Shown here: positions 50,285 through 53,335 of the stretch, one piece after another
Position numbering within the stretch: position 1 is the first letter of the stretch
Layout of the letters: each line of letters starts with the position of its first letter
NCBI RefSeq assembly: GCF_016744155.1
Contig: NZ_JADGEW010000023.1
Span: 1-64,000, forward strand
From: Amphritea sp.
GTDB taxonomy: Bacteria; Pseudomonadota; Gammaproteobacteria; Pseudomonadales; Balneatricaceae
DNA: 64,000 nucleotides
Direction: 5' to 3'
The notes under the pieces: model-generated
Told to the model about the DNA's origin: nothing
The model's input: the letters and a program-made list of their open reading frames with translations, nothing else
Databases searched by the model: none
Program-made: the position numbers and the translations under genes

Positions 50285-50302
50285 ACGGTCAAAAAATAGT
50301 GA

Positions 50303-50350
50303 AAGAGATCGATACAATTAAATACAGTTATTAAACCCTATTGATCTCTT
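50303..50350. terminator. Inverted repeat between convergent genes
   Basis: AAGAGATC (50303-50310) and GATCTCTT (50343-50350), 8-bp perfect arms with a 32-base AT-rich loop between the aminotransferase and the MFS gene ends. Weak candidate terminator for both. Confidence 0.3.
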
Positions 50351-50361
50351 ACTCTTATCAC

Positions 50362-53259
50362 TCAACTGTTCTTATCAATGGACTCAACCCACTCGCCCTC
50401 ACGAGCCTCCATCCCATCACTAATCGCATCAACTACCTCAGAGGCAGCATCAGGAATATTTTCGACCACGGCGATGGCAACATCTTCGATATTATCCGGT
50501 GCAGCCTCGCTGAGTCTGTTAACCACCTCAACCGCATCTTCAATTTCACTGGCGGGTTCTTCTATGATCCCAGTATTCTCTTCGTTATGACTTTCATGCA
50601 ACAGTCTGGAGACCTCAGCAGCGACATAGCCTGCGCTCTCCGGTACCGCTTCAACAATTTTTACTGCAAGGTTTAGGGACATCTCCGGTGACAGTTCTGA
50701 CATTCGGGTTAACCATTCAATGGCTTTCTGATGCTCATCATCGTCAATGACTTCCGCCCCCTCCTCGATAGGATCTAAAACTCCGTCAGTCTCGCTTAAT
50801 GCCTCTTCTTCCTCCTCGGAAACTGATAGGTACTCATCAGTAATCTCAAGCATAGACTCAGGCACCGCTTCAACCACGGTAGCAGCAACATCCATCGCTT
50901 GATCAGGAGCGGCTTCAGACATTCTGGAGACCCATTCAACCGCATCCGGATAGTCAGCTGATTCTGCTAAATCATCGGTATCCGAGGTAACGCCTTCCTC
51001 GGTAGAACCTTCTTCATAATTAGCCATATACCCTTCGGTCATTTGAACCGCAGTTTCAGGTACCGATTCAGCCACTGCCACCGCAATGTCCAATGCCTGC
51101 TCCGGTGCCGCTTCGGATAGTCTGGAGACCCACTCAATCGCATCAGAATGCTGGCCTTCATTACTTGAATCAGCAGCAGAACTCCCTGAGCCCCCAGCTT
51201 CCTCTATACTGTCAGAATCATAATTTGCCATATACCCTTCGGTCATAGGCACTGCGGTTTCAGGTACGGATTCGGCAACTGTTACAGCAATATCCAAAGC
51301 TTGGTCCGGCGCAGCTTCAGACATTCTGGAGACCCATTCAACTGCATCTGAATATTCTTCTGCCTCGACCTCTGTATCACCATCTCTATCTACCAAAGCG
51401 CTATCCTCAACGGCATCCTGCTCATAATTCGCCATATACTCTTCGGTCATTGGCACCGCGGTTTCAGGAAATGATTCAGCAACGGTTACCGCAATATTCA
51501 ACGTCTGCTCTGGATTTGCTTCCCACAACTCTGATGCTATGTTCATAGCATCGGATTCACTAGTATCCTCATCTCTATCCGCTGGGCGAACCGCTTCCCA
51601 TTCCTCTGCTAACAGCCCTGAATAATACTCAGCCACCTGAGTAGCCGATTCTGGTGCCGAGGCCACAGCAATTCGCGCCATCTCTAGACGCATTTCAGGA
51701 AACACCCGCCCTACCTCAATCGCTACTGCTATCACCTGTTGCGGATACCATACGGCCAGTTGCGAGATCAGTTCGGGGGCTAATTCTGGTTTAGCTTTAA
51801 CGATAGCCTGGGTAATCTCAAGAATCTGATAGGGAGCCGTCTCCTTCATGACTTCATAGAGCCGCATAACATCAATGCCAGGTACTGTTGCGACTGCGGC
51901 CGCAACTTCCGTGCCTTTTTCTGGATTGTTCCGGGTTAAAGCTCGTGCCATATTTACCGCTGCAGCAGGGTCAGATTCGGCAATCAGAACAGCCGTTCTT
52001 GCTGCAGAACTAGGAGCAGCATCAGGCTCTACATATTCCGTTCGTGGATCCAGGCCAACCGAGCTAGAAAGCGCGGCGTTTTGCATGACAAAGTCTTCCT
52101 GATCAGACACTGGCAACGCCTTACTGACAGTCATTCGATACGCCGTAAACAGAGCTAATAGAATCTGAAGGATAGCGAGGAAGTAGAACAGACTAGAACT
52201 ACCGAATACCTGCATCACCACAGAAGCCGCATAAGGACCGATTGCACCACCGATACCAAACGCCAGCAGTAAACTTCCCATGGCTGACACCATCTCGGTC
52301 TTTTTCAGCTTATCAAAAGATTCGGCAACACTTAGTGGGTAATAGCAGGTGACGATACCTGCAGCTACACCGTTGAGAATAAAGATACCCACTATCATTC
52401 CCCGTTCAGCCAGCGGAATAATCGCGAGACCCAATACCGACGAAAGCAGCAACAGTACAAGTAAAATTGATCGACGATCAAAACGATCGGACAGCAACCC
52501 TACAGGAAACTGTAATACAAAGGCCCCTATAATCGCACACCCCATAAACAGCGAAAGTTGAAAGCCGCTTATATGATATTCCGCGGCAAACACGGGTAGC
52601 ATATTAAACAGTGCAGAATAAACAGCTCCTGAGATTAAACAGGCAGCAACCCCCAGCGGTGATATTTTGAACAGTGAGATGACTGACATGGGCGCAATCG
52701 TTTCAATAACCGGCCCTTGAGCGCGGCTGAAGAGTATCGGTAACGCCGCCATGCAGAAGAGCATTCCGACAATAATGAATAACGTGCTATCGGAGGGGTC
52801 TGCAACCCCCATCAGAAACTGCCCACCGAATAAGCCGCCCAGGATACAAGCGTTGTAGACCGCTAATACTTTACCCCGGCTTTCCTCAGAAGCACTATCC
52901 GTCAGCCAGCTTTCCATCGCCGTCAGCAAACAAGCATGACTAAAGCCCAGCAATACCCGTAGAACGCCCCAAAGGAAAGCATTGGTATCAAGCGTAAAGG
53001 CAAGAATACAGATCGCTTCAATCGCGACACTACCTGCGAAGGCACGAATATGGCCGACACGTTTAACCAACTGTTTACTGTAAATCGCACCGGCAAATAA
53101 GCCGACAAAAAACATCGACAGCACCATACCGATGGTATCGGTAGACATGCCTTCCAATCCCATACGAGAAGGCACTAGAATATTCATAAGCCCGATGCCC
53201 AGATAAAGAATCACTGCGCTGCTAAACAAGGCTATTAAAGGCAACAGGGTATTTCGCAC
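50362..53259 (-). CDS. MFS transporter fused to a long proline-phased, acidic helical repeat domain
   Basis: 965 residues. Residues 1-378 are a twelve-span MFS transporter resembling YcaD: MSMFFVGLFAGAIYSK (loop 2-3), WLTDSASEESRGKVLAVYNACILGG, and the second half from PLGVAACLIS with QFPVGLLSDRFDRRSI. After a linker (380-415), residues 420-545 have a proline at 431, 446, 460, 476, 491, 506, 521 and 536, almost exactly every 15 residues, each starting a short hydrophobic helix. Residues 570-965 hold six longer units (63-73 residues) of core SEAAP-x14-P separated by Asp/Glu/Ser-rich linkers; P pairs at 583/598, 651/666, 719/734, 785/800, 858/873 and 921/936 keep the 15 spacing. The tail should be cytoplasmic. 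GTG start. No name known to me for this repeat. Confidence 0.85.
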   Translation of the reverse strand: MRNTLLPLIALFSSAVILYLGIGLMNILVPSRMGLEGMSTDTIGMVLSMFFVGLFAGAIYSKQLVKRVGHIRAFAGSVAIEAICILAFTLDTNAFLWGVLRVLLGFSHACLLTAMESWLTDSASEESRGKVLAVYNACILGGLFGGQFLMGVADPSDSTLFIIVGMLFCMAALPILFSRAQGPVIETIAPMSVISLFKISPLGVAACLISGAVYSALFNMLPVFAAEYHISGFQLSLFMGCAIIGAFVLQFPVGLLSDRFDRRSILLVLLLLSSVLGLAIIPLAERGMIVGIFILNGVAAGIVTCYYPLSVAESFDKLKKTEMVSAMGSLLLAFGIGGAIGPYAASVVMQVFGSSSLFYFLAILQILLALFTAYRMTVSKALPVSDQEDFVMQNAALSSSVGLDPRTEYVEPDAAPSSAARTAVLIAESDPAAAVNMARALTRNNPEKGTEVAAAVATVPGIDVMRLYEVMKETAPYQILEITQAIVKAKPELAPELISQLAVWYPQQVIAVAIEVGRVFPEMRLEMARIAVASAPESATQVAEYYSGLLAEEWEAVRPADRDEDTSESDAMNIASELWEANPEQTLNIAVTVAESFPETAVPMTEEYMANYEQDAVEDSALVDRDGDTEVEAEEYSDAVEWVSRMSEAAPDQALDIAVTVAESVPETAVPMTEGYMANYDSDSIEEAGGSGSSAADSSNEGQHSDAIEWVSRLSEAAPEQALDIAVAVAESVPETAVQMTEGYMANYEEGSTEEGVTSDTDDLAESADYPDAVEWVSRMSEAAPDQAMDVAATVVEAVPESMLEITDEYLSVSEEEEEALSETDGVLDPIEEGAEVIDDDEHQKAIEWLTRMSELSPEMSLNLAVKIVEAVPESAGYVAAEVSRLLHESHNEENTGIIEEPASEIEDAVEVVNRLSEAAPDNIEDVAIAVVENIPDAASEVVDAISDGMEAREGEWVESIDKNS
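50365..51552 (-). repeat. Coding tandem repeats in the MFS-tail gene
   Basis: Six degenerate ~190-220 base units encoding the acidic repeat. A 29-base segment is identical at 50912-50940 and 51313-51341. The segment CATAATTxGCCATATACxCTTCGGTCAT occurs three times, near 51017, 51220 and 51424. The central three to four units are most alike, as expected from recent unequal exchange. Confidence 0.85.
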
Positions 53260-53301: not shown

Positions 53302-53335
53302 AAACAAAAAAAGCCGGCTTCTTAAGCCAGCTTTG
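53302..53335 (-). terminator. Terminator of the MenI-like thioesterase gene
   Basis: On the minus strand AAAGCTGGCTT pairs with AAGCCGGCTTT (one mismatch), followed by seven T. It stands between the thioesterase stop and the MFS start. Confidence 0.82.

Follow-up and report, generated by a model that had tools for sequence, protein, structure and literature searches.

The window analysed here is a stretch of 64,000 nucleotides from Amphritea sp. (contig NZ_JADGEW010000023.1). Within it, a minus-strand gene at positions 50362..53259 encodes a YcaD-like carrier of the major facilitator superfamily (MFS) that continues into a long C-terminal helical repeat tail. Each half belongs to a known fold class, and it is their joining that appears new. 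Few transporter groups are as common as MFS carriers, which mostly function without large cytoplasmic parts. The preferred reading, in which we place about even confidence, is a carrier bearing a cytoplasmic alpha-solenoid arm that would dock partner proteins or gate transport. In the literature searched, which lies mostly outside subscription journals, no MFS protein joined to a proline-stepped solenoid with acidic-linked units in varying number was encountered.

Architecture of the carrier and its tail

The gene is a single open frame with a GTG start, its coordinates including the stop. The plus strand of the same interval carries stops throughout, whereas the minus-strand reading is open over all 965 residues of the product. 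The carrier domain occupies residues 1-376 (52132..53259, minus strand, as are all features below). It matches Pfam MFS_1 at 159.9 bits against a gathering cut-off of 33.4 (E-value 1.1e-46, best stretch 11-315). Counted as long helices in the full-length AlphaFold2 model, there are 12 membrane helices up to residue 378, the last spanning 356-378. The carrier portion stops at about residue 376-378, in agreement with a previous sequence-only reading that ended it near 378, and leaves a tail of 589 residues. The best named subfamily for the carrier half is YcaD (NCBIfam NF002962, PRK03633), which scores 147.4 bits over residues 6-371, far short of the 361 bits required of an equivalog. With 382 positions, the model for YcaD includes no tail, in contrast to the 965 residues found here. 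When the whole protein was searched against PDB sequences, the 11 chains matched at E up to 0.1 were all MFS proteins, and the closest named record among the matches listed is an Amphritea metagenome-assembled genome (MAG) protein with 98% identity. R101, D258, R262 and D316 are among many carrier residues that are invariant in a 52-row alignment.

The tail begins with a juxtamembrane segment (residues 377-415; 52015..52131) carrying the motif A-L-P-V-x-x-Q-E-x-F-V-M-Q ... L-D-P-R. A core solenoid follows (residues 416-557; 51589..52014), supported by blocks of high predicted local distance difference test score (pLDDT), with nine proline-punctuated helices, eight of them 11-14 residues long and the last about 21. 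An R-P-A-D-R motif (residues 558-562; 51574..51588), whose R558 is present in 50 of 51 rows, marks the start of the variable part. Beyond it lie six distal units of three helices each, joined by acidic linkers. Units 1 (residues 567-613; 51421..51561), 2 (635-681; 51217..51357) and 3 (703-749; 51013..51153) are defined by a hidden Markov model (HMM) of the unit together with the model helices; units 4 (769-815; 50815..50955), 5 (842-888; 50596..50736) and 6 (905-951; 50407..50547), the conserved last unit, are defined by the unit HMM. The C-terminal end (residues 952-965; 50365..50406) holds an E-G-E-W stretch.

Prolines punctuate this tail with striking regularity. After residue 376 there are 31 in total, including those at 431, 446, 460, 476, 491, 506, 521 and 536 and the pairs 583/598, 651/666, 719/734, 785/800, 858/873 and 921/936, exactly where the sequence-only reading had listed them. 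The 15-residue step that it proposed exceeds chance: 12 proline pairs are separated by 15 residues, whereas 2000 shuffled versions of the tail average 1.5 such pairs and never reach 12, and at lags of 5 to 79 no shuffle rose above 8 pairs. The AlphaFold2 model of the tail consists of helices only, with a mean pLDDT of 84.1 and core blocks at 93-97. The full-length model places the same tail helices after the 12 membrane helices, with the core at pLDDT 84-87. Confidence is low in the linkers and at residues 391-412. The description of the tail as a regular helical solenoid extending into acidic linked units thus stands, and the alternative of a disordered tail is contradicted by the confidently predicted helices. 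At the DNA level, only one short 12-base tandem array occurs in 50300-52200, and identity among units is 40-79%, peaking between units 2 and 3.

Searches of Pfam and NCBIfam with 35 tails found no family that covers the tail consistently, as the sequence-only reading had supposed, and recognised no signalling domain. Pfam gave scattered weak matches in 55 families. Among the best 25 of these, the commonest was INTS1_R4, in 8 of 35 tails at E up to 0.1; on rescanning, one of seven tails passed its cut-off, narrowly (27.8 versus 27 bits). For the HEAT, ARM and TPR repeat families, the Pfam cut-off was not exceeded in most members (35 tails, seven rescanned). NCBIfam at E 0.01 gave eight families, none in more than two of the 35 tails. 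One tail matched TIGR02514 (type III secretion needle length) at E 5.3e-8, which was taken as probably compositional, no other member having matched. A PDB sequence profile search of the tail returned five matches at E up to 10. A relation to FliG was considered and set aside: it consists of one weak profile match over the core (5tdy, E 0.0025), and FliG and MgtE models are absent from the Pfam matches of the 35 tails among the best 25 of 55 families.

The best Foldseek matches to the tail are helical solenoids of the TPR and importin types, and VIA-align matches include designed repeats, VPS35, Rrn3 and API5. Helical-solenoid proteins of this kind are mostly protein-binding scaffolds. HEAT, ARM, TPR and designed alpha-solenoids are likewise arrays of short helices and provide the best fold matches; unlike them, the window tail has no consistent sequence family match and keeps a regular 15-residue proline step.

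Distribution, duplication and selection

A scan of genome contigs yielded at least 79 loci from the best 80 matches, which is not a census. The loci span Amphritea, Neptunomonas, Marinobacterium, Pontibacterium, Oceanospirillum, Motiliproteus, Osedax symbionts, Colwellia, Thalassotalea, Marinomonas and others. The tail profile is present in 32 of 57 relatives, falling within the MFS match or, in genome G002, directly after it; tail matches on the contig fragments G005:C152, G008:C23 and G013:C132 could not be placed. In a class-wide spread sample it occurs in 2 of 369 genomes, namely the window genome and G245, whose tail carrier is an MFS protein with L-D-P-R and R-P-A-D motifs. The window's family has an orthologue at E 1e-100 in 57 of 116 genomes and 11 of 16 genera, distant tail-less MFS paralogues (~30-35% identity) being left out of the orthologue counts. 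Open frames shorter than 500 amino acids account for 5 of the 60 family matches listed: those in G031 and G454 are tail-less and ridA-linked, those in G437 and G496 lie at the first bases of their contigs, and the fifth is G452:C146.

The idea that gene prediction, a frameshift or an assembly error has joined the carrier to a neighbouring gene carries negligible probability. Across many genera, isolates and MAGs alike carry the same uninterrupted fusion, and no point was found in favour of an artefact. Homologues also retain the 15-residue proline spacing. The sequence-only reading had named such a fusion among the outcomes that would overturn it.

Broken copies do occur. The orthologue of Aliamphritea spongicola (L033, L090) is interrupted, leaving two open pieces of 252 and 791 codons, and L107, another copy, is also broken. 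A search for BCCT transporters likewise gave many partial matches in this genome (G002), where sequencing error is possible.

The proximal tail is strongly conserved. D404, P405 and R406 are invariant in all 52 rows of an alignment of tailed proteins, and 56 of the 79 loci place D-P-R at residue 404. Among the 62 proteins of at least 540 amino acids, D-P-R falls at 404 in 49, of which 34 additionally carry R-P-[AVI]-D at 558; the length of the core is therefore fixed in that set. The distal part is variable, and the unit HMM finds 0 to 6 copies beyond residue 540 across relatives (the HMM was made from the window's own six units, and the window count of six is by construction). A [DE]-[GE]-E-W stretch lies within the last 75 residues in 29 of 49 proteins longer than 600 amino acids, regardless of unit number.

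Comparison with the orthologue of A. atlantica (L041) indicates how the array may have grown. Window units 1, 4, 5 and 6 pair best with L041 units 1, 2, 3 and 4, at 33, 37, 45 and 32 identical residues of 47, respectively. Units 2 and 3 have no L041 partner; they share 39 of 47 residues with each other and 31 and 32 with unit 1. Because these two units lack a partner and resemble each other, we infer that the extra units arose by internal duplication after unit 1. In Amphritea balenae (L045, L013), consecutive distal units at a contig end are near-identical, apparently through a recent duplication within the gene.

Selection was estimated from the ratio of nonsynonymous to synonymous substitution rates (dN/dS) in six gene pairs of Amphritea-type loci. 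Synonymous divergence is mostly 0.7 and above, which makes the ratios rough, and saturation leaves one or more regions without a ratio in two of the six pairs. Where computable, dN/dS lies at 0.024-0.079 in the carrier, at 0.016-0.086 in the core (five species pairs) and at 0.065-0.176 after residue 558. Between the window and L011, it is 0.051 in unit helices and 0.258 in linkers. The core looks to be under constraint like that of the carrier, and the tail, judged by these ratios, is under purifying selection in orthologues.

These ratios bear on whether the tail could be a loosely constrained low-complexity expansion of little function, changing by repeat gain and loss. The range of zero to six units, the resemblance of units 2 and 3 to internal copies, the repeated loss described below and the relaxed linkers would all fit such an expansion. 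The low ratios largely refute it for the core and unit helices, and the equal core length from D-P-R 404 to R-P-A-D 558, the shared C-terminal E-W stretch and the confident fold also speak against it, making it a very improbable explanation overall. Retention with varying repeat number, or loss, suggests a docking or control arm. The sequence-only reading had offered a scaffold, an ion buffer or an adaptor; a docking or regulatory role appears the better inference, and nothing in the analysis favours ion buffering in particular.

Tail loss and linkage to ridA

Tail-less orthologues are associated with an upstream RidA-family gene. Linkage was scored at 84 loci; it required a gene no more than 1.2 kb upstream, in the same orientation, whose product has at least 60% identity to the RidA-family protein of L105. 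Eight loci qualify: L086, L088, L089, L105, L113, L114, L156 and L079. Seven of them make up every complete gammaproteobacterial tail-less orthologue in the set, and the eighth, L079, has a degenerate tail. The remaining 76 loci have no upstream ridA; six of these are fragments or broken copies (L080, L090, L099, L104, L106, L107). At 3 of the 84 loci fewer than 600 bases lie upstream, including L088, where the end of the contig truncates ridA. L157 (G454), which is the same cluster as L105 at 100% identity, was omitted from the count, and L116 and L117, two short rows from alphaproteobacteria, are without ridA. Tail-less orthologues keep the A-L-P...F-V-M-Q motif in seven of seven cases and D-P-R in five of seven, and end soon after. 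Because these proteins retain the motif, the juxtamembrane segment appears to belong with the carrier.

A careful tree was built from 47 selected rows, namely the window, L035 and 45 of the 79 loci. A first tree had dropped rows L080, L090, L099, L104, L106 and L107 and assigned tail classes by length alone, by which L115 counted as core only. The first pair tests further left out L115-L117 and scored L088 as lacking ridA. A starred clade of 11 contains short tails only (five tail-less, five core only and one degenerate). Outside this clade, L105 and L035 (G031, locus L156), both tail-less, form a pair placed with long-tailed genes at a support of 86/90 (not starred). For groups named after a tree had been seen, the approximately unbiased (AU) test rejects a single clade of the seven tail-less rows (p-AU 2.29e-61) and of the eight ridA-linked rows (p-AU 1.39e-46). 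On this phylogenetic evidence, the tail is lost repeatedly.

In the relatives where ridA is linked, the neighbouring genes have a catabolic character. At L113 the order is LysR, aldehyde dehydrogenase, Peptidase_M19, BCCT, RidA-family (Ribonuc_L-PSP), MFS and TauE, with Peptidase_M19, Aldedh, BCCT, Ribonuc_L-PSP and TauE confirmed by Pfam. The best NCBIfam model for the aldehyde dehydrogenase of the cluster is alpha-ketoglutaric semialdehyde dehydrogenase, below its cut-off. This LysR-to-TauE cluster is conserved in Colwelliaceae and Neptuniibacter (L113:1264-9078, L105:1231-8985 and L156 of G031) and perhaps serves a proline- or betaine-type solute. Nothing relevant to a BCCT-RidA-dipeptidase operon appeared in the literature searched. 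In Neptunomonas L049 (512-4606), Pfam identifies genes for a DUF3483/CCG protein, EtfA and EtfB directly before a BCCT gene and a tailed carrier; we take the DUF3483/CCG protein to be DgcB and the set to be for dimethylglycine breakdown. Because BCCT, electron-transfer-flavoprotein and RidA-family genes are neighbours in some relatives, the transported solute is probably an amine, a betaine-like compound or a metabolite derived from amino acids. None of these genes lies beside the window gene.

It is conceivable, though unlikely, that the arm is a modular device, a fixed solenoid with species-tuned units, that gathers catabolic enzymes or a regulator and becomes dispensable once the carrier gene sits in the matching catabolic operon. 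Several observations weigh against so simple an operon rule. Motiliproteus L067 keeps two units, and at a distance of three genes, on the opposite strand, it has relatives of the BCCT, M19-type and aldehyde dehydrogenase genes. Neptunomonas retains three units next to BCCT, and some Colwellia loci are core only without ridA. The association between ridA and tail loss also comes down to just 3-5 independent pairs (p 0.125-0.5), which are concordant or show no difference, none being contrary. For BCCT and missing distal units there are five pairs, 1-2 of them concordant and 0-1 contrary, too few independent changes for a test. As drawn from gene order and phylogeny, the link of ridA to tail loss is a strong pattern with weak statistics. 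Tail loss behind ridA nevertheless supplies a concrete hypothesis on the pathway served and on the swapping of physical for operon-level coupling. If true, the modular arm would represent a kind of metabolon anchor or transceptor not encountered for bacterial MFS proteins in the literature searched.

Comparison with known carriers and the proposed role

ProP is an MFS carrier, and no ProP-named model is among the 17 NCBIfam matches. In the available text on ProP, homologues occur with or without a cytoplasmic C-terminal extension, like the presence and absence of the tail here, and the two kinds differ in osmotic range (PMC4272814), which sets a precedent for activity being tuned by such an extension. 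By analogy, the acidic distal units could set the range over which the carrier works, a rather unlikely proposal with evidence on both sides. Residues 558-965 are strongly acidic, with a net charge of -96, unit number differs among species, osmolyte-type neighbours occur in some relatives, and a conserved juxtamembrane motif connects carrier to solenoid. The same source, in the part available, describes short homologues that lack just 60-70 residues and an extension that is a coiled coil, whereas here there is a 589-residue solenoid (PMC4272814). No such coiled coil is found in the model of the window tail, which is many short helices. Tail length, moreover, varies widely in marine relatives, and no evidence points to an osmolyte as the carrier's solute.

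The UMF-2/DHA4 drug exporters BC3310 and YfkF likewise have a 12-helix MFS domain, and the available text on them describes no tail (PMC6055358, PMC4601019). YcaD is named there as a predicted member of this family (PMC6055358). The family motif A', E-r/k-P-L-x-r/k-x-G-x-r/k-P-x-I, is placed between helices 2 and 3 in the accessible portion of the report (PMC4601019). It is absent at residues 61-74 of the window carrier, which read S-K-Q-L-V-K-R-V-G-H-I-R-A-F.

The yeast glucose receptors Snf3 and Rgt2 have a similar layout, with a 12-helix carrier-like domain and a cytoplasmic C-terminal signalling tail, and the source, as available, reports that in yeast a tail attached to a transporter converts it to a receptor (PMC10876965). 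The window protein shares the 12 membrane helices and a long, presumably cytoplasmic tail, so that its carrier domain might bind a solute while the tail signals. Snf3 and Rgt2 are eukaryotic, and no helical solenoid is described for them in the available text (PMC10876965). The carrier domain here looks functional. Because carrier residues including R101, D258, R262 and D316 are invariant over the 52 rows and tail-less orthologues persist near catabolic-type genes, carriage has likely been kept. Together with the lack of a recognised signalling domain in the tail, this makes a receptor or transceptor improbable.

The preferred reading, a carrier with a docking or gating arm, can be set out in full. 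Residues 416-557 would form a nine-helix solenoid covalently attached to the 12-helix carrier, followed by the R-P-A-D motif and then by three-helix units, zero to six among relatives and six here, on flexible acidic linkers. The tail would be cytoplasmic, given 12 helices and the usual MFS topology. The arm would bind proteins, either docking partners or gating the carrier, and so serve the partners or the carrier itself, and the distal units might tune its reach or avidity. Genes standing behind ridA have lost the arm or retain a degenerate one, as though operon membership could substitute for it. The orthologue series, from tail-less through core only to core plus one to six units, would allow a direct test of the repeat arm's effect on a carrier.

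Genomic context and additional open frames

In the window, the neighbours of the carrier gene include genes for a 4HBT thioesterase and a class I/II aminotransferase (Pfam). These neighbour clusters are uninformative, the thioesterase recurring at 9 of 74 loci and the aminotransferase at 15 of 74; a BCCT transporter lies within 7 kb at 18 of 74. A terminator-like hairpin with a T-run (53310..53334, minus strand), identified by consensus scan only, sits upstream, between the thioesterase gene and the carrier gene, and the region holds eight terminator-like sites against 3.5 in shuffles. Because of this upstream hairpin, the carrier gene may form its own transcription unit.

Two long open frames were also observed. 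In Colwellia, a 1486-residue frame (L070:10262-14719) adjoins a core-only carrier. On contig C42 of the window's own genome, a 1152-residue frame (L153:478-3936) has a family match in its MFS part alone; it is presumably a fusion of an MFS carrier with an acyltransferase and an AMP-ligase, like LplT-Aas.

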